Below the pieces are notes generated by a model, which was not told the origin of the DNA, ran no database searches, and worked only from the letters and a program-made list of their open reading frames with translations. Positions 543 through 9,278 of a DNA stretch of 21,964 bases are shown here, in pieces. Every line of letters begins with the position of its first letter. Within the stretch, counting starts at the first letter, position 1. The stretch is from a virus, in IMG/VR virus record IMGVR_UViG_3300042516_003053, positions 1 through 21,964 of that record; one strand, 5' to 3'. Position numbers and translations under genes: made by a program.

Positions 543-808
543 GGCATTTGATCTCCGTGCATGGCTTGGCGGTATTCGCTCAGGCTGACGACGTCTTGTC
601 GTCTGAGGCGTTCGAGGCGATCTTGGCGCAGTGCGTGGACGATCGTGTCGAGTAGCTCTTTGGCCCAGGCGGTCGTATCTTCATCCCACGCCGTGCCGCT
701 GTTTTCAAGCGCGCTGAGGCTGGCCTGGCATTCCTTGGCTATCTCGTCCCACACCTGGGCGCACAAGGCGTCTGCGGCGGCGGGATCGGCGTCAGAAGGG
801 TATGTCAT
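539..808 (-). CDS. Hypothetical phage protein, 89 aa
   Basis: Small acidic, helical protein without Cys, signal peptide or membrane segment; I do not recognise a family. It starts with ATG inside the 3' end of the upstream gene (17-base overlap) and its TGA overlaps the terminase small subunit start (ATGA), so it is probably translated by coupling. The position directly before the terminase gene suggests a packaging or late-switch accessory role, but nothing in the sequence demonstrates this. The tight overlaps on both sides are the main evidence that it is real. Confidence 0.7.
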   Translation of the reverse strand: MTYPSDADPAAADALCAQVWDEIAKECQASLSALENSGTAWDEDTTAWAKELLDTIVHALRQDRLERLRRQDVVSLSEYRQAMHGDQMP

Positions 809-1364
809 CGTCTAGGTCCGCGAATGCTGACTTGGATGGGCGTTGAACGGTCGCGCCTGGGAACGCGGCTTTGGTTGCCTCTGCGAAGGCGGCTGGTTGC
901 CATTGTGACCAGGCGAGTAGGAGCTCGGGCAGCGTGACGACTGTGTCTGGGTGCTTTGAGTGTCGCGCTGCTGCGTCGTGGTCTGCTGGGTCGAGGACCA
1001 CTGTGTAGGGTTTGCCTTCCCAGGTGATCGACCAGGTGTTGGGTGGGTTTGGACTGTGGCCGGCTTCGGTCGCGGCTTTGTCCAGGGCTTGCCATCCTCG
1101 GTGCAGGACTTGGGCGCGGTGCAGGACTGTGGCCACGTCTCCGTCCTGGATTGCCTCGTCCAGTTTCTGGGCTGCTGATCCGAACTTGTGTGCCAGGTCG
1201 AATGGGACCAGGCGCGGCAGTCTGTTGCATCCCCACTTGGCTTCCATGTCCGCTGCCATCTTGTCCAGTGGTGCGAGCGTCGCGGCCATGTCTCGTCCGC
1301 GCGTCCAGGTCTCTTTGTTCAGATGGGCCTGGTCTGAGGTGGATAGGCGTTTCACCTGGCTCAT
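792..1364 (-). CDS. Hypothetical protein with SSB-like C-terminal tip (DDDIPF), 190 aa
   Basis: The 190-residue soluble protein is unrecognised over its body (helical N-terminal half, then a WSITWEGKPYTVVLDPADH segment near residues 110-130 that looks like beta strands). It ends in FADLDDDIPF. The last six residues are identical to the tip of bacterial single-stranded DNA-binding protein, which recruits replication and repair enzymes. It is the first gene after the primase-helicase and the hexamer repeat cluster, so a role at the fork or in redirecting host SSB partners is plausible (inference). The start is ATG at 1364 with only a weak GGGA about 9 nt upstream. The 3' end overlaps the next gene by 17 bases. 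Confidence 0.75.
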   Translation of the reverse strand: MSQVKRLSTSDQAHLNKETWTRGRDMAATLAPLDKMAADMEAKWGCNRLPRLVPFDLAHKFGSAAQKLDEAIQDGDVATVLHRAQVLHRGWQALDKAATEAGHSPNPPNTWSITWEGKPYTVVLDPADHDAAARHSKHPDTVVTLPELLLAWSQWQPAAFAEATKAAFPGATVQRPSKSAFADLDDDIPF

Positions 1365-3772: not shown

Positions 3773-4396
3773 CTAAAACTCATCGATGTCACTAGTGACC
3801 GGAGCTTTAGGGGCAGGCTTTGGCGCCGGCGCCGGAGCTGGGGGCGCTTCTTCCTTCATTTCGGCCGGCACTGCAACCCAGCTGGTGATGGACCACTTGG
3901 GTGCCTTGAAGCGCAGCTCGCCTTCCGGCGTCTTGATCTTCACGACCTCGGTGCCTTCGATCGTCACCACCGGCACCTTGCCTGGATTGGCGGGCGCCTG
4001 CTCGAGGAACTGGTCGTGCAGCGTGTCCACTGCGCGCAGTACGGTCTTGCTGGTGGGCGTGAACTCGCGCAGGCCGTGCTCCTTGAGGAACATCTTGATG
4101 CGCGCGGCCTGCTTATAGTCGTTGCCTGGCTTGGCTGGGAAGCGTTCGCCTGCCTTAACCATCACGGCGTGATAGTTGGGCGAGAAGGTGATCCAGCCCA
4201 TCTCGATGTCGTCCAGGGCCATGATGACCTTCACGGGGAAGGAGATCTCGACCTCGTTCTTTTCCCATGTGCCATCGCCGGCGGGCTCGCGGTTCACGGC
4301 CAGCATGTCGCCCGACTTCGCGTCGAACTTCACCACCGGCAGAAACTTGGAGCCGCTTGAGTTGGTCTCGGTGTTAAATCCCAATGCCATTTTCAT
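3773..4396 (-). CDS. Putative phage ssDNA-binding protein, 207 aa
   Basis: Begins MKMALGFNTETNSSGSKFLP and has a beta-rich body with motifs EVEISFPVKVIMALDDIEMGWITFSP (about residues 48-73) and NPGKVPVVTIEGTEVVKIKT. A Pro/Ala-rich linker follows, and the protein ends VTSDIDEF. An acidic tip ending in Phe after a disordered linker is typical of ssDNA-binding proteins (bacterial SSB, T7 gp2.5). Together with its place between resolvase and primase-helicase, this supports an SSB role; the family is not certain. The reading frame stays open far upstream, but that part is out of phase with the resolvase gene and is a shadow. AAAGGA lies just before ATG 4396; the second ATG (4390) has better spacing and may be the true start. 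Confidence 0.6.
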   Translation of the reverse strand: MKMALGFNTETNSSGSKFLPVVKFDAKSGDMLAVNREPAGDGTWEKNEVEISFPVKVIMALDDIEMGWITFSPNYHAVMVKAGERFPAKPGNDYKQAARIKMFLKEHGLREFTPTSKTVLRAVDTLHDQFLEQAPANPGKVPVVTIEGTEVVKIKTPEGELRFKAPKWSITSWVAVPAEMKEEAPPAPAPAPKPAPKAPVTSDIDEF

Positions 4397-4440: not shown

Positions 4441-4926
4441 TTAGCGCGAGGCGCCCCAGTAGGCCATGAGGGCCGCGTCGGCGCGGCCGTCCCACTTCTT
4501 GAGTGCGAATAGGTGTGCGTATGCCGGGAAGAGCTCGGCCGCGCGTTGGCGGCTGCCGTCCTTCCCGTCGCGCACGTTGAGATCCTTCTGCCAGCGTTGC
4601 GGCGTGACGTACTGCATGGGCATACGCAGCGCGGAGACGACGCCTTCCACCATGCCCACGCCGCGGCCGAACTGGAATGTGCTGCTGACCCCTTGGCCTG
4701 GCATGGCGCCCACGCGCTCCAGCACGACGAGCGTGATGGGCGGCGTGCTGAGGCTCACCTGGGCGCGGCCGATGGTCGTGGCCAGGAGGGCCGGCGAGAT
4801 CTCGCGCTTGGCTTTCCCGCTGCGTTGCACTTCCACGGTCGGCATGTCGATGATCTCGAGCGTGCCGGCGGCCTGGTCGAAGAATGCAAGAGCGCCTGAC
4901 GCGCCTGGGTCGATCGCGAGGATCAC
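4441..4926 (-). CDS. RuvC-like Holliday junction resolvase
   Basis: The 161-aa protein has an RNase H-fold nuclease layout: AIDPGASGALAF with catalytic D6, VVLERVG with E70, and the C-terminal motif KWDGRADAALMAYWG with D146 and D150. This matches the RuvC family, which cuts four-way junctions; phage members also resolve branched replication and recombination DNA before packaging. The length is close to bacterial RuvC (about 170). The start is GTG at 4926, overlapping the TGA of the DUF551 gene (GTGA), which supports this start. It sits in a recombination block with the RecE-like exonuclease and the SSB-like gene. Confidence 0.85.
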   Translation of the reverse strand: MILAIDPGASGALAFFDQAAGTLEIIDMPTVEVQRSGKAKREISPALLATTIGRAQVSLSTPPITLVVLERVGAMPGQGVSSTFQFGRGVGMVEGVVSALRMPMQYVTPQRWQKDLNVRDGKDGSRQRAAELFPAYAHLFALKKWDGRADAALMAYWGASR

Positions 4927-5382: not shown

Positions 5383-6189
5383 TTACTCGGCGTAGGGCTC
5401 GACCTGAGCCCAGGCGGGGACGGAGATCTCGGTGATCGTGTCCGAGTAGAAGGCCGGGGCCGTGTCGGCTTGCTCCAGGGCGACGCGATAGGCGCGCGCT
5501 GCGCGTTCCATCAGCAGGCGCCCAGACTGCAAGCTGCGCGCATCCAGGGTGTAGACGCCCACCGCGTAGGGGGCCTCGCTCTCGACCGCGATGAAGACGA
5601 AGCGATCCAGATCCCAGCCCACGATCTCGCGGAAGCCGGCCGCGTAGTGCGCCGCCTGGACGTGATACTGGAAGCTTGCGATCTGCTTGGCGAAACCGTC
5701 TGGGCTGGCGTCGGTGCAGGTCTTGATGTCGAAGATCGCGCTGCCTGTCATGTAGTCGCAGCGCGCCTTGCATGGCAGGCCGTACTGATCCCAGAAGAGA
5801 CTGACTTCGGGATTGCCGTCGCGCAGGCCTTCGATCGCCACGGGATGCTTGCGCACCGAGGCTGCGATGGCCGAGGCTTTTTCGTAGGCCGTCTCGTCGA
5901 CGATGATCTTGCCGGCGTGTTCCTGCTCGAACTCTTCCGCGGCCTTCTTGCCCACCGTCGTGCGCCGATCGAACTTCGGCATGACTGCGAACTCGTCCTT
6001 GAACGTGTCGGGCTCGAGGATCATCGAGTGCGTGAGCGTACCCAGGCGCATTGCGGCAGTGGGTTCGCGCGGCGTGCTCTTCGATGAGATGTAGTGCGCC
6101 GGCGAGCGCAGCAGAAGCTTGGCGCCTGATGCGCTCAGAGCTTCGACCGCGTGGTAGTCACTTGCGGGCATTCCGACGTGGGATGGCAT
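5383..6189 (-). CDS. RecE-like exonuclease (PD-(D/E)XK family), 268 aa
   Basis: Residues MRLGTLTHSMILEP (H54), NPEVS (E128), KARCDYM (D145), FDIKT (D154, K156) and QYHVQAAHYAAG (about 174-185) reproduce the active-site order of RecE/DUF3799-type PD-(D/E)XK exonucleases. These resect 5' ends at breaks and feed single-strand annealing. No annealing protein of recognised type follows, so the SSB-like protein or an unrecognised gene may be the partner. I chose the start at 6189 (MPSHVGMPASDYH) because GAGAGGA lies about 8 nt upstream; the longer in-frame extension overlaps the tiny membrane protein gene. Confidence 0.8.
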   Translation of the reverse strand: MPSHVGMPASDYHAVEALSASGAKLLLRSPAHYISSKSTPREPTAAMRLGTLTHSMILEPDTFKDEFAVMPKFDRRTTVGKKAAEEFEQEHAGKIIVDETAYEKASAIAASVRKHPVAIEGLRDGNPEVSLFWDQYGLPCKARCDYMTGSAIFDIKTCTDASPDGFAKQIASFQYHVQAAHYAAGFREIVGWDLDRFVFIAVESEAPYAVGVYTLDARSLQSGRLLMERAARAYRVALEQADTAPAFYSDTITEISVPAWAQVEPYAE

Positions 6190-6286
6190 GTTCTTTTTCC
6201 TCTCTAGCCATGTGCAGCAGAGCGGCCAGGAGCATCCCGGCGGCAGTGCCAACAAAGGTTCCAATCACGAAGCAGAGCCAATTCAC
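6158..6286 (-). CDS. Tiny single-pass membrane protein (DUF3789-like), 42 aa
   Basis: Encodes MNWLCFVIGTFVGTAAGMLL followed by AALLHMAREEKEHAIPRRNARK from a GTG start. One hydrophobic segment (residues 2-24) is followed by a charged tail. This is the layout of DUF3789, a small phage and bacterial membrane protein of unknown function. The GTG overlaps the TGA of the AlpA-like gene (GTGA), and the 3' end overlaps the exonuclease start by 32 bases in another frame. It is easily missed because of its size and its GTG start. The clean hydrophobic profile and the coupling on both sides support it. Confidence 0.65.
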   Translation of the reverse strand: MNWLCFVIGTFVGTAAGMLLAALLHMAREEKEHAIPRRNARK

Positions 6287-6569: not shown

Positions 6570-6998
6570 ATGAGCACGACTAGAAAACACGACAAAAACC
6601 ACTGGGTGCGCGAAGGGCTGACTGCCAAGGGCTACACGCAGCGCGACCTGGCGCGTGCGTGGGGCGTGGCGGAGCCTTCCGTGTCGCGCTTCATCTCAGG
6701 CGAAGAGGGGGCGGATCCGCCCCTATCTCGTGCCGTCACGCTTGCGGTGATGCTGGGGATTAGCCTGGAAGACCTAGCGCGCGGCCTGGGCTTGCGTGGC
6801 AAGCGCATCGAGCCTGTGGTGACGCAGGAGGCTGGTGTGCCTCCTGTTGGCACGTTCCGCATGGACGTGCTGGGCGAGGGGCGCGTGCGTGTTGTGTTGG
6901 TGCAAGACGTCGCGCCCGATGTTGCGTCGCAGCTGATTTCAGTCTTGGGCGGCTCGAGTGACAGTGGGCGCGTCCGTGACCGTAAGGCGCGTGCGTAG
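6570..6998 (+). CDS. Phage repressor-like XRE-family protein, 142 aa
   Basis: N-terminal HTH (about residues 13-45: VREGLTAKGYTQRDLARAWG then VAEPSVSRFISGEE) followed by PLSRAVTLAVMLGISLEDLARGLGL, a typical lambda-repressor-like fold. The remaining 60 residues (KRIEPVV...GTFRMDVLGEGRVRVVLVQDV) look like a small beta domain. There is no LexA-type Ser/Lys protease domain, so induction would not use RecA-stimulated self-cleavage. It is the only plus-strand gene in the early region and lies divergent from the replication operon, as expected for a lysogeny repressor. A dyad lies 12-24 bases before its ATG. No clear Shine-Dalgarno. Its 3' end overlaps the opposing gene by 60 bases. Confidence 0.75.
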   Translation: MSTTRKHDKNHWVREGLTAKGYTQRDLARAWGVAEPSVSRFISGEEGADPPLSRAVTLAVMLGISLEDLARGLGLRGKRIEPVVTQEAGVPPVGTFRMDVLGEGRVRVVLVQDVAPDVASQLISVLGGSSDSGRVRDRKARA

Positions 6999-7193
6999 GC
7001 CCTTGCCTTTCTCGATCGGCTTGTCTTCGGTCAGCGACTTGTATTCGCCGCACCAGTAGGACACGGCCACGCGGTGCGGCTGTGGGTAGCGGTGGCAGGT
7101 GCGAGATCCGCCCGCCTGGCCCGCGGTGTAGCGACAATCGCCGCACGATGGTCCGCGCTTATTCAGCGCCGGCGCGTCGTGGTTGATGCTCAT
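6939..7193 (-). CDS. Small Cys-rich, possibly zinc-binding phage protein, 84 aa
   Basis: Cysteines at residues 17 and 20 (CGDC), 33 (TCHRYP) and 48 (YWCGEY) give a four-Cys pattern like a zinc ribbon. Small proteins of this type are common in phage early regions; the function is unknown. Start ATG at 7193, with GGAG 7 nt upstream and a stop/start overlap (ATGA) with the preceding membrane protein gene; further open frame upstream is not needed. The 3' end runs 60 bases into the convergent repressor gene. Confidence 0.65.
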   Translation of the reverse strand: MSINHDAPALNKRGPSCGDCRYTAGQAGGSRTCHRYPQPHRVAVSYWCGEYKSLTEDKPIEKGKGLRTRLTVTDAPTVTRAAQD

Positions 7194-7321
7194 TCCTTTT
7201 CTCCATATTCGTTTCTTGGCGATCGACACGACACTGCAGCCAGCGCCGCAAGCGCCAAGACGGCGCCGCAAAGTGTCAGGATCGACAGCGCGTCGCTCCG
7301 TTCAATCGGTGTTTTTGTCAT
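7190..7321 (-). CDS. Tiny membrane protein, 43 aa
   Basis: Starts MTKTPIERSDALSILTLCGA and continues VLALAALAAVSCRSPRNEYGEKE. One hydrophobic stretch spans about residues 13-31; AAVSC could be a degenerate lipobox but lacks the usual Leu/Val/Ile at -3. The ATG overlaps the stop of the upstream gene, and its final GEKE codons (GGAGAAAAGGAATGA) form the ribosome-binding site and start of the next gene. I do not recognise a family. Confidence 0.6.
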   Translation of the reverse strand: MTKTPIERSDALSILTLCGAVLALAALAAVSCRSPRNEYGEKE

Positions 7322-7578
7322 GGCGCGGGCTTCTCTCCCAGCGCCGCGCGGGCAGCGAAAGCGCGCGAACATATTGGGGGGTGGCTTAATAACGCCACAC
7401 AGATGTCGCCTTTGCCGATCTCCCGCAGCGCCGCCCGCAGCTTTTCGTTTTCTGCTGCTAAAGCCCTTAACATATTCGACGCTTCTACTTCAGTCGCGCT
7501 CCAGGTTGACCCGCTGATCCCGGATAATTGGAGGTTGTACGCCACTTCTTCCGCGCGCTTTGCGCTTATGTCCATCAT
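7318..7578 (-). CDS. Modular small protein of the array, coiled-coil type, 86 aa
   Basis: N-terminus MMDISAKRAEEVAYNLQLSG, a coiled-coil-like segment AAENEKLRAALREIG (about residues 41-55) and the C-terminal module ARAALGEKPAP. The central ENEKLRAALREI and the end ARAALGEK match the pattern of the MSDIVERLR genes upstream, but the N-terminus differs, as if another head module had been joined to the same tail. At DNA level, 7431-7447 is identical to the start of the 34-bp repeat at 7924 and 8175. The first ATG (7578) overlaps the previous stop and has GGAG 7 nt before it. Confidence 0.7.
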   Translation of the reverse strand: MMDISAKRAEEVAYNLQLSGISGSTWSATEVEASNMLRALAAENEKLRAALREIGKGDICVALLSHPPICSRAFAARAALGEKPAP

Positions 7579-7793
7579 TCCTTTTCTCCCAGCGCCGCAC
7601 GGGCGTACACGTCGGGCGGATCTTCGTTCTCACCCTCCCATGCCTGGGCTTGCGCGGCCTTATCACCCCATTCTGCGGCTTTGTCTTGCGTTGGTTCATA
7701 CCCGATAGTCAGGATCTCGTTGCCGCGCAGGACCGCGGCCATCCAAAGGTCGCGCGCCGGGTCAAAACCAACGACGATCTGAAGATCGCTCAC
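7575..7793 (-). CDS. Modular small protein of the array, 72 aa (GTG start)
   Basis: Starts MSDLQIVVGFDPARDLWMAA from GTG 7793, which overlaps the previous stop (GTGA) with GGAG 7 nt upstream. The body (residues 4-60) is a different, beta-like sequence (GNEILTIGYEPTQDKAAEWG) without the EADEIEKLR coiled coil, but the ends match the array: MSD at the N-terminus and ARAALGEKE at the C-terminus. It looks like an unrelated core within shared ends. The longer open frame upstream overlaps the neighbouring gene and lacks coupling evidence. Confidence 0.65.
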   Translation of the reverse strand: MSDLQIVVGFDPARDLWMAAVLRGNEILTIGYEPTQDKAAEWGDKAAQAQAWEGENEDPPDVYARAALGEKE

Positions 7794-8056
7794 TGCTTTT
7801 CTCCTGCTTCGACGCGGTCTCTTTCCTCGTCGAGAATTGAGTTGATGAACTCTTCGTGCTTGAGCCCTTCCAGGAATAAGACACCTTCGTATCCGTAGAT
7901 AGAAGCGGCCCACTCACAAATCGCCGCCCGCAGCTTTTCGATTTCGTCGGCGGCTTCCCATACAGTTGTATCTTCCGGCCTTAACCAAGCTTGATTGCCG
8001 CTGGTCTGTGGTAGTTCTTTAGCTATCCGGCGCAGCCGCTCAACGATGTCGCTCAT
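7790..8056 (-). CDS. MSDIVERLR-family small protein, 88 aa
   Basis: Head MSDIVERLRRIAKEL (residues 1-15), linker, then EAADEIEKLRAAICEW (about 34-49), a heptad-like helix, and a tail EEFINSILDEERDRVEAGEKQ. Head and coiled coil are nearly identical to those of the genes at 8053-8265 and 8262-8516. Its coiled-coil DNA (7924-7957) is identical over 34 bases to 8175-8208. The ATG overlaps the upstream stop (ATGA) and GGGAGAAAAG precedes it. Function unknown; proteins with this head are common in temperate phage accessory regions. Confidence 0.7.
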   Translation of the reverse strand: MSDIVERLRRIAKELPQTSGNQAWLRPEDTTVWEAADEIEKLRAAICEWAASIYGYEGVLFLEGLKHEEFINSILDEERDRVEAGEKQ

Positions 8057-8208
8057 TTCTTTTCTCCCAGCGCCGCGCGGGCGATTCTGCACAGTTGATC
8101 CATGTATGACATTGGGTGTGCGTCTTGTGTGTGCGCTTTGATTGTAAGCAACGCCCCCTGCATCGCGCGCCGTTCCGCCCGCAGCTTTTCGATTTCGTCG
8201 GCGGCTTC
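7924..8208. repeat. Perfect 34-bp direct repeat within the small-gene array
   Basis: Bases 7924-7957 and 8175-8208 are identical (34 of 34, 251 bases apart). A third copy at 8417-8444 matches over 28 bases with one mismatch, and 7431-7447 carries the first 17 bases. The repeat encodes the EAADEIEKLRA coiled coil in each gene. Flanking head blocks (8031-8056, 8240-8265, 8491-8516) and tail blocks (about 7331-7353, 7582-7605, 8060-8084) are also repeated. These are substrates for homologous recombination that could gain, lose or swap cassettes. Confidence 0.85.
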
Positions 8209-8265
8209 GATCCCTAAAGAAAAAGATTTCCCCCAGTATCGCAGCCGTTCCACAATGTCGCTCAT
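8053..8265 (-). CDS. MSDIVERLR-family small protein, 70 aa
   Basis: Head MSDIVERLRYWGKSFSLGI, coiled coil EAADEIEKLRAERRAMQGAL (about residues 20-39), variable part LTIKAHTQDAHPMSYMDQL, and tail CRIARAALGEKK. It is the cleanest example of the array's head/coiled-coil/tail plan. The final LGEK codons (GGGAGAAAAG) serve as the Shine-Dalgarno of the next gene. The start at 8265 overlaps the previous stop (ATGA). No membrane segment or catalytic motif; function unknown. Confidence 0.75.
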   Translation of the reverse strand: MSDIVERLRYWGKSFSLGIEAADEIEKLRAERRAMQGALLTIKAHTQDAHPMSYMDQLCRIARAALGEKK

Positions 8266-8516
8266 GGCCCTTCTCCCAACGGAGCGCGGGCGATTGCATC
8301 ACACACCACTAGCAGCGCCTCTGGTGTTTTGTCTTTCCGCCTTGCGTTAAAACTAATTTTTTTCAGCGCCACCCGCAACGAACCAAGCTCTTTTTCAAGA
8401 TCACCATACTTGGCGCGCAGCTTTTCAATTTCGTCGGCGGCTTCGTTGCAGAATTTGTCTGCATCAGCATGATCATAAATATCAGCTGTTCGCAGCCGTT
8501 CCACGATGTCGCTCAT
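8262..8516 (-). CDS. MSDIVERLR-family small protein, 84 aa
   Basis: Head MSDIVERLRTADIYDHADAD, coiled coil EAADEIEKLRAKYGDLEKEL (about residues 25-44), then LRVALKKISFNARRKDKTPE and tail CDAIARAPLGEGP. Same plan as the two following genes, with a diverged tail (PLGEG for ALGEK). Some segments (codons for NARRK and KKIS) are visibly more AT-rich than neighbouring genes, a hint that parts of the array have mixed origins. The ATG overlaps the TGA of the 58-aa gene upstream, which supplies AAGGAG. Confidence 0.75.
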   Translation of the reverse strand: MSDIVERLRTADIYDHADADKFCNEAADEIEKLRAKYGDLEKELGSLRVALKKISFNARRKDKTPEALLVVCDAIARAPLGEGP

Positions 8517-8689
8517 GCGCCCATCTCCTTCTGCGGCAGGAATAACTTGCGCGCGCGCTTAATGTGCGGCGACATTTCCTGCGCTGTCGTCAGCGTCTCG
8601 ATCGTCTGCTTGATCCGCGCCGCGCCCCAGTGATCGCCCTCGCGCTCTGCTATCACCAGGTTGTGCTCGAGCCTCTGCAGGAAGGTCAT
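8513..8689 (-). CDS. Hypothetical small protein, 58 aa
   Basis: Encodes MTFLQRLEHNLVIAEREGDH followed by WGAARIKQTIETLTTAQEMS and a basic tail PHIKRARKLFLPQKEMGA. It looks all-helical and soluble. The ATG shares bases with the stop of the upstream gene (TGATG), and the end AAGGAGATGGGCGC acts as ribosome-binding site for the first MSDIVERLR gene (ATGA). I do not recognise it; tight coupling on both sides is the main evidence. Confidence 0.6.
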   Translation of the reverse strand: MTFLQRLEHNLVIAEREGDHWGAARIKQTIETLTTAQEMSPHIKRARKLFLPQKEMGA

Positions 8690-8919
8690 CACAGCTGGCC
8701 TCCTAGCGTTTCACGTGCAACCGTCTTCATCTTCATGGCCGTCGACCAGACGACGGAAGGCGGTGGCATGTGGCCGGCGTCGTCGGTGAGCTCTGCCATC
8801 GCAATTGCATGCAGGCCGGTGCGCAGGCGGCCGTTCTCCTCGAGGAGGAGCCGGGCTTCCGCCTTCACCTGGACGAGCTCGGCGGTCACGCTGCTGGTGC
8901 TGTGGGCGTCGATTTCCAT
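8689..8919 (-). CDS. Small coiled-coil protein, possible diverged array member, 76 aa
   Basis: Starts MEIDAHSTSSVTAELVQVKA with AAGGA 7 nt before the ATG. A helix EARLLLEENGRLRTGLHAIA (about residues 21-40) and the end ARETLGGQL resemble the ENEKLRAALREI helix and ARAALGEK tail of the array genes downstream, so it may be a distant member with a different head. No known function. The stop overlaps the next start (TGATG). Confidence 0.6.
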   Translation of the reverse strand: MEIDAHSTSSVTAELVQVKAEARLLLEENGRLRTGLHAIAMAELTDDAGHMPPPSVVWSTAMKMKTVARETLGGQL

Positions 8920-9020: not shown

Positions 9021-9278
9021 TTAGCCCTCGAGCTCGTTGACGACCAATGTGGCGTATCCGGCGATGTCGCGCCAGTGGTCGATCTCGTGCGGGTTGCCGT
9101 GAAGGGCGCGGCTGATCTTCTGAGCGATCATGTCCAGGGCCTCGCGCTGGTAGGGCGTGAGGTTGTCCCATCCGTCCTGGCAGCGCATCCCTCGCTTCAT
9201 GTTATGCGACCAGGTGGCCTGCTCCTTGTAGGGGCCGTGGGTCTTGCCGCGTTCCTCGAGGATGTTCGAGATGCTCAT
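9021..9278 (-). CDS. DUF6378-like phage protein, 85 aa
   Basis: Contains ILEERGKTHGPYKEQATWSH near the N-terminus and QREALDMIAQKISRALHGNP followed by DHWRDIAGYATLV. The series ERGKTHG, QREALDMIAxKIxR and DHWxDIAGYA is the signature of DUF6378, a short helical protein frequent in temperate phage early regions. Function is unknown to me. The ATG overlaps the TGA of the preceding gene. It precedes the small array genes in the same operon. Confidence 0.85.
   Translation of the reverse strand: MSISNILEERGKTHGPYKEQATWSHNMKRGMRCQDGWDNLTPYQREALDMIAQKISRALHGNPHEIDHWRDIAGYATLVVNELEG

Follow-up and report, generated by a model that had tools for sequence, protein, structure and literature searches.

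A coupled array of small phage genes whose members and halves are probably exchanged at two short in-frame repeats

How does a phage come to carry a row of small genes whose beginnings, middles and ends recur in different combinations? This question is raised by a region of the IMG/VR virus record IMGVR_UViG_3300042516_003053, the whole of which (21,964 bases; hereafter, the window) was analysed. At 7190-8516, on the minus strand, lies an array that consists of a translationally coupled row of small genes and two repeated DNA blocks, J and K. The genes follow in the order Z2-Z1-A-B-C-D-E-F-G, all on the minus strand, with a 4-nucleotide [A/G]TGA overlap at each junction from Z1/A through F/G (Table 1). 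A preliminary description, made from the sequence of the window, had proposed a cassette array evolving by recombination between repeats. The five open reading frames on which it relied, A to E, were all found where it had placed them: A, B and C open with the head MSDIVERLR and hold the helix EAADEIEKLRA, and D and E terminate in ARAALGEK. Gene ends differ elsewhere (VEAGEKQ in C, ARAPLGEGP in A), the common tail element being GE(K/G). Overall, as detailed below, it is very probable that the array is shuffled.

The most direct evidence came from close relatives, which were found by searching with the flanking genes and are 94-97% identical to the window on both sides of the array. Three haplotypes with such flanks hold different arrays, the number of genes between D and G being two in the window, one in L085 and none in L087; gene F is missing from the latter two. 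Gene D occurs in each of the three haplotypes and in roughly a dozen further lineages. Between near-identical flanks, then, both gene number and half-genes differ, with breakpoints in the repeats. The relatives do not carry fixed, co-diverging orthologues; outside the window, its array is found only in L015 (100% identical over 7.2 kilobases) and L033 (99.96% over 11.8 kilobases), both of them contigs of this phage. As these two carry it unchanged, rapid switching is not indicated. The relatives' swaps at the repeat blocks thus bear out the proposed recombination-driven cassette array.

Block J is a 56-nucleotide repeat family, with copies at 8031, 8240 and 7553, which reads on the coding strand as a single continuous junction, cgcccgcgcggcgctgGGAGAAaagaaATGAGCGACATCGTTGAGCGGCTGCG. 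Its halves are the gene end ARAALGEK and the MSDIVERLR of the next gene, tail and head together forming one DNA connector: a GGAGAA Shine-Dalgarno site lies within the ...ALGEK codons and is followed, after a few bases, by the ATGA stop/start overlap and often by the MSDIVERLR codons. To separate conservation of the protein from that of the ribosome-binding site, we compared tail codons in 76 non-redundant tailed genes from 33 loci. The tail glycine was encoded by GGA in all 74 readable GE(K/G/P) tails, versus 59 out of 324 in the bodies of the same genes (Fisher p = 6e-44), and the spacing from GGAGA to ATGA was 6 in 71 of the 76 genes. Moreover, 114 of the 119 GEK-tailed genes in related arrays share a 4-nucleotide overlap with the following gene. 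Since the glycine codon is always GGA and the spacing to ATGA is fixed, the conserved tail appears to be principally the translation start signal of the next gene, written as codons. A role as a degron or protein module was rejected as the main cause on the same two grounds. The tail, earlier described as a protein module, is therefore a real repeat that acts mainly as a ribosome-binding site and belongs with the head to one connector.

Block K is a 34-nucleotide repeat family encoding the coiled-coil seam EAADEIEKLRA, located between variable N-terminal and C-terminal parts. The 34-base identity between the copies in genes B and C, already noted in the preliminary description, is exact, and an exact repeat of this length within 22 kilobases is not a product of chance; further, more divergent copies were found in genes A and E. 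Codons for the same amino acid in K are identical between loci in 77-80% of cases, versus 41% expected from codon usage, which indicates common descent of the seam rather than convergence. In the structural model of the gene B protein, three helices are predicted, the longest of which (residues 16-49) spans K (mean predicted local distance difference test score, pLDDT, about 81 (80.7)).

We then located mosaic boundaries in related IMG/VR loci (at most 80 per search). Between related arrays, compared in 18 pairs, 78 unique boundaries were observed (48 in J, 15 in K, and 15 elsewhere), although the loci were chosen by array patterns and the counts are not natural frequencies. J and K together held 63 of the 78 boundaries, versus 33.7 expected, and none of 20,000 shuffles reached 63. 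When one locus was counted per event (12 pairs, 31 events), 24 of the 31 boundaries fell in J or K with wide boundary windows (13.5 expected, p = 5e-5), and 18 with narrow ones (6.2 expected, p = 5e-5).

Genes A, C and E of the window are chimeras joined at K, their two sides matching different phages. In gene C, the head (7922-8073) is 94.1% identical to L045, the tail together with gene D (7568-7948) is 96.6% identical to L074/L085, and the overlap of the two matches (7922-7948) falls in K. The head of gene A (8413-8516) matches L078 at 92.3% identity, and the stretch made up of its tail and gene B (8053-8377) matches L036 at 84.8%. For gene E, 84% identity to L031 and L036 over 7425-7605 ends at the K copy, and the tails of L031 and L036 differ. 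Finally, gene B matches L022 from K to its stop (8032-8208, 91%), beginning at the 5' end of K. Outside the array, no DNA similarity to the window was detected in the fetched stretches of L023, L031, L036, L045, L066, L078, and L124. Across 54 K-bearing genes, 19 head clusters and 28 tail clusters occurred in 41 combinations, with head diversity understated because single-linkage clustering merged MSDIVERLR with MSDIADKIYA heads. One tail, T1 (...LAKHIWRGDWDKLKPETR...), was paired with five head clusters; it is also fused to Z1 in L004 and L141, and the head family of Z2 was found with other tails in L036, L124, L023, and L129. Two further genomes presented related arrangements. In L141 (6001-6219), gene D seems to be a hybrid of a window-type first half and an L004-type second half, joined near AEWG. 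On the reverse strand of L079, the heads of two genes (6936-7142 and 7354-7584) are 93% identical over 114 nucleotides and carry different tails, a duplication with subsequent tail exchange.

Sibling arrays also contain recognizable cargo. The L036 array is a chain of about 20 small genes, and in both L036 (2641-2967) and L124 (2442-2768) a Lar restriction-alleviation zinc domain forms the head and is fused through the seam to a B-type tail (T3). The L036 protein, the only one of the two tested, scored above both curated cut-offs (PF14354, 4e-10; TIGR03655, 1e-11); a curated profile search of the window genes found no Lar domain. L124 also carries a pentapeptide-repeat gene with an ALGEKE end. 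In the sister phage L087, which is 94-96% identical, a HigB-like toxin and a HigA antitoxin are inserted in the array (7737-8313) and Z1 is truncated; HigA exceeds the TIGR02607 cut-off and its partner matches the phage toxin family phrog_3066 (1.8e-13). As a separate observation, an in-frame poly-glycine run near the array tail differs in length (GGGGGGGGGGGGW versus GGGGGGSGGS) between genes of two relatives, L045 (reverse strand, 7196-7453) and L152 (5759-6004).

Table 1. Genes, repeat copies and array haplotypes, with the recombination genes of the window
Feature	Coordinates	Strand	Description
Z2	8689..8919	-	Small gene, core ENGRLRTGLHAIA; opens the linked chain
Z1	8513..8692	-	59 amino acids; fixed left-hand gene of the array
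Gene A	8262..8516	-	MSDIVERLR head, EAADEIEKLRA seam, tail KKISFNARRKDKTPEALLVVCDAIARAPLGEGP; K-joined chimera
Gene B	8053..8265	-	MSDIVERLR head, seam, tail IKAHTQDAHPMSYMDQLCRIARAALGEKK
Gene C	7790..8056	-	Chimera joined inside K: L045-like head, L085/L087-like tail
Gene D	7575..7793	-	GTG start; ARAALGEKE end; most conserved member of the array
Gene E	7318..7578	-	Head MMDISAKRAEEVAYNLQLSG, seam AENEKLRAAL, own tail; K-joined chimera
Gene F	7190..7321	-	43-amino-acid predicted membrane peptide; YGEKE end is the Shine-Dalgarno site of gene G
Gene G	6939..7193	-	84 amino acids, cysteine-rich; fixed right-hand gene; 94-97% conserved flank in all haplotypes
J, Z1/A junction	8490..8528	-	Head half; Shine-Dalgarno AGGAG
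J, A/B junction	8240..8295	-	82% to reference copy
J, B/C junction	8031..8086	-	Reference copy: IARAALGEK - GGAGAA - ATGA - MSDIVERLR
J, D/E junction	7553..7608	-	Tail half kept
J, E/F junction	7330..7353	-	Tail half
K, gene A	8411..8444	-	88%
K, gene B	8175..8208	-	34 nucleotides identical to 7924-7957
K, gene C	7924..7957	-	Breakpoint versus L045, L085, L087
K, gene E	7431..7464	-	74%; L036/L031 homology stops here
RecE / exonuclease VIII-like nuclease (DUF3799)	5383..6195	-	PF12684 2e-33; phrog_412 1.3e-83
RuvC-like Holliday junction resolvase	4441..4926	-	phrog_1770 7.4e-32
Window haplotype			Z1-A-B-C-D-E-F-G
L085 haplotype			Z1, long hybrid with C tail at its end, D, one unrelated MSDIVDRLR gene, G
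L087 haplotype (L088, L089 same)			Truncated Z1, HigB-like toxin, HigA antitoxin ending YRAALGEKE, new head joined to C tail at EIEKLRA, D, then directly G

The array proteins are under purifying selection: the ratio of nonsynonymous to synonymous substitution rates (dN/dS) was about 0.08-0.32 for gene D and, when heads and tails were taken separately, about 0.05-0.37, which indicates that the halves are kept as functional protein despite changes of partner. Among the profiles searched, PHROG 5328, a family of unknown function, gave a possible match to gene A only, over the MSDIVERLR head and the seam (E = 5.9e-4, residues 2-50). Genes A-E gave no meaningful match to PADLOC defence profiles and, like Z1 and Z2, none to the Ead_Ea22 profile at E <= 1. 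A confident beta-beta-beta-alpha fold was predicted for the gene D protein (pLDDT 86), without significant structure matches in the PDB or among viral structures; a resemblance to double-stranded RNA-binding domains, at E > 0.15, was not used. Matches between the head family and PDB sequences look like chance coiled-coil matches and were set aside. The Ea22 protein of lambda offers an analogy, being an early coiled-coil protein of 182 amino acids that is tetrameric and pro-lysogenic (PMC10834534). Both systems involve small early-region proteins, and in Ea22 the N-terminus is short and variable, a coiled coil is present, and the C-terminal domain varies among phages (PMC10834534); however, it is a single larger gene with no tandem array. 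The Lar domain and HigBA make an accessory or anti-defence role plausible. On the strength of this cargo and the Ea22 analogy, we tentatively suggest that the array proteins serve host takeover or counter-defence as small accessory proteins that form oligomers.

Could protein selection alone have kept the blocks, in paralogues that diverged in place after tandem duplication and without exchange between DNA repeats? Coiled-coil helices do limit sequence, the amino acids of K are invariant (dN is 0 in EIEKLR, which follows from the way the motif search was built), and the two similar heads of L079 sit in one genome. Near-identical tails nevertheless stand behind unrelated heads, and vice versa, in phages that otherwise lack detectable DNA similarity in the fetched loci; both the codon agreement in K and the invariant GGA of the tail also speak against it, and the clean swaps between close relatives refute this explanation, which we hold to be very unlikely. 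Less probable still is that the chimeric arrays are short-read assembly errors. Every locus is a metagenome contig, and repeats of 34-56 base pairs can mislead assemblers, but the arrays recur in separate records (L015 and L033 for the window, L087=L088=L089, L013/L046, L126/L128/L130, L131/L132, and L141/L142), divergence is graded on each side of the seams (72-97%), and neither reading frames nor overlaps are broken. Cassettes set in tandem between constant connectors recall an integron array, and might suggest programmed switching within one phage population, whether by phase variation, a mechanism like that of diversity-generating retroelements, or integron-like site-specific recombination. 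Neither the region nor its junctions contain inverted repeats, however, no recombinase of this kind was found beyond the phage integrase (10225-11316), and separate contigs of the same phage have identical arrays. Site-specific or inversion switching was rejected on these grounds, and of all the explanations considered it is the least probable.

More weight is due to illegitimate, random joining followed by selection for working genes, with J and K merely the joints that leave proteins and ribosome-binding sites intact. Selection by itself would favour boundaries at junctions too; 7 of the 31 boundaries lie outside J and K in the wide-window count, and the HigBA insertion in L087 has its left boundary inside Z1, not at J. 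Yet both partners carry near-identical DNA at the seams, enough for homologous exchange to follow, and genes for a RecE-like exonuclease and a resolvase lie close by. We consider random joining an unlikely explanation; both it and homologous exchange may be active, sequence data separating them only in part. The HigBA boundary also belongs to the findings that weigh against exchange at J and K as the cause of the swaps. About a fifth to two fifths of the boundaries, depending on window width, fall outside the two blocks; the position of a boundary inside an identical repeat is not resolvable, and alignments tend to reach the far edge of the repeat. Moreover, the window yielded no annealing protein (RecT/Erf/Sak), and its array proteins matched no family of known function in the Pfam, PHROG, NCBIfam, and PADLOC profiles. 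With these points taken into account, homologous exchange at J and K is still the cause that we infer for the swaps.

The genes for the RecE-like nuclease and the resolvase share the strand of the array and follow just downstream of it, and the same order is found in the uncultivated phage MW202711, in which the gene syntenic with the resolvase is annotated 'holliday junction resolvasome'. For Lambda Red and related Rad52-like systems, homologies that are short and diverged suffice for recombination while the phage grows (PMC2327257, PMC3945230). A 206-amino-acid gene at 3773-4393 gave no family match. Two proteins without a family, encoded at 3773-4393 and 792-1364 (both minus strand), end in the acidic tips SDIDEF and DLDDDIPF, as in single-strand DNA-binding proteins; their products are candidates for a single-strand DNA-binding protein or an annealing partner of the RecE-like nuclease. 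On the other side of the array, 9021-9278 (minus strand) encodes a DUF6378 protein that also falls in the PHROGs 'phosphofructokinase' grouping (phrog_474), a name that was probably transferred.

Taken together, we propose that the early region of a temperate phage holds a coupled chain of accessory genes that would evolve through homologous exchange at two short in-frame repeats. Exchange within J would swap, add or remove whole genes while both neighbours kept their stop, ribosome-binding site and start, and exchange within K would recombine head and tail halves into a new intact protein. The RecE-like exonuclease and the Holliday junction resolvase probably act on co-infecting or resident phages, and the array probably encodes oligomeric adaptor or effector proteins that are interchangeable and serve host takeover or counter-defence. 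We assign this explanation as a whole a probability of about 0.8.

The nearest known arrangement is the lambdoid nin region, for which PMC8022706, citing Kroger and Hobom 1982, describes tight, ATGA-linked gene packing. Both consist of packed small, mostly non-essential genes with ATGA overlaps, have variable content among relatives, and are associated with recombination genes. In lambda nin, however, the junctions have ATGA in common but are not repeats (mean pairwise identity of 33% over 62 nucleotides), whereas the junctions of the window have a mean identity of 42%, and up to 74%. The Shine-Dalgarno site of the array is moreover an invariant C-terminal peptide, and we know of no second in-gene seam in lambda nin. 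The array genes gave no nin-family match (orf, rap, ninC-ninI) in Pfam, PHROG or NCBIfam, and the nearby resolvase is RuvC-like, not Rap. The array is thus a chain of the nin kind in which the coding connector is repeated and a second seam, in frame, is present. Phage protein-fragment shuffling (PMC10684548) similarly involves recent exchange of parts among otherwise different phage proteins; here, the proteins are mostly early ones of under 130 amino acids and the seam is defined by DNA. The Lar family (PF14354/TIGR03655) is related to the array only through the fused heads of L036 and L124, the other heads being unrelated. In the mobile regulatory cassettes of T4-type phages, short regulatory sequences between small genes provide homology for shuffling, the cassettes being early promoters with stem-loops; the array element differs in being a coding Shine-Dalgarno/start junction. 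In the open-access literature, we found no described array of this kind.

According to the preliminary description, modular MSDIVERLR proteins occur in many phages. This holds among uncultivated IMG/VR records; in 50,697 GenBank phages, neither the array DNA nor genes A and D had a match (gene A by tblastn), nor did two array proteins from other loci among GenBank phages. The J pattern and D-family proteins were likewise not found in 84,980 prokaryote species, each represented by a single genome. At the sensitivity of these searches, the array is therefore known only from uncultivated viruses. A structural protein and a RepA-like helicase are about 27-48% identical to proteins of alphaproteobacterial and unclassified phages.

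The two seams can be read directly from the sequence: the coding Shine-Dalgarno/start junction preserves two genes, and the in-frame coiled-coil seam preserves one protein. More speculatively, and in our view rather doubtfully, J might be a general, integrase-free gene-capture device and K a combinatorial library in which heads pick the host or defence target and tails the effector or its localisation. If so, any gene gaining a C-terminal GGAGAA-6 nucleotides-ATGA end could join the operon in step, and the HigA-tail and Lar-seam-tail fusions would be cargo seen at the moment of capture. GGAGAA-6 nucleotides-ATGA tails provide a search rule for captured counter-host cargo such as Lar or HigBA. 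The ways in which phages go on swapping small accessory genes and keep their operons whole are mostly described after the fact; the array shows how a phage family may reassort such proteins, and it offers a testable model for the reassortment of early-gene "dark matter".

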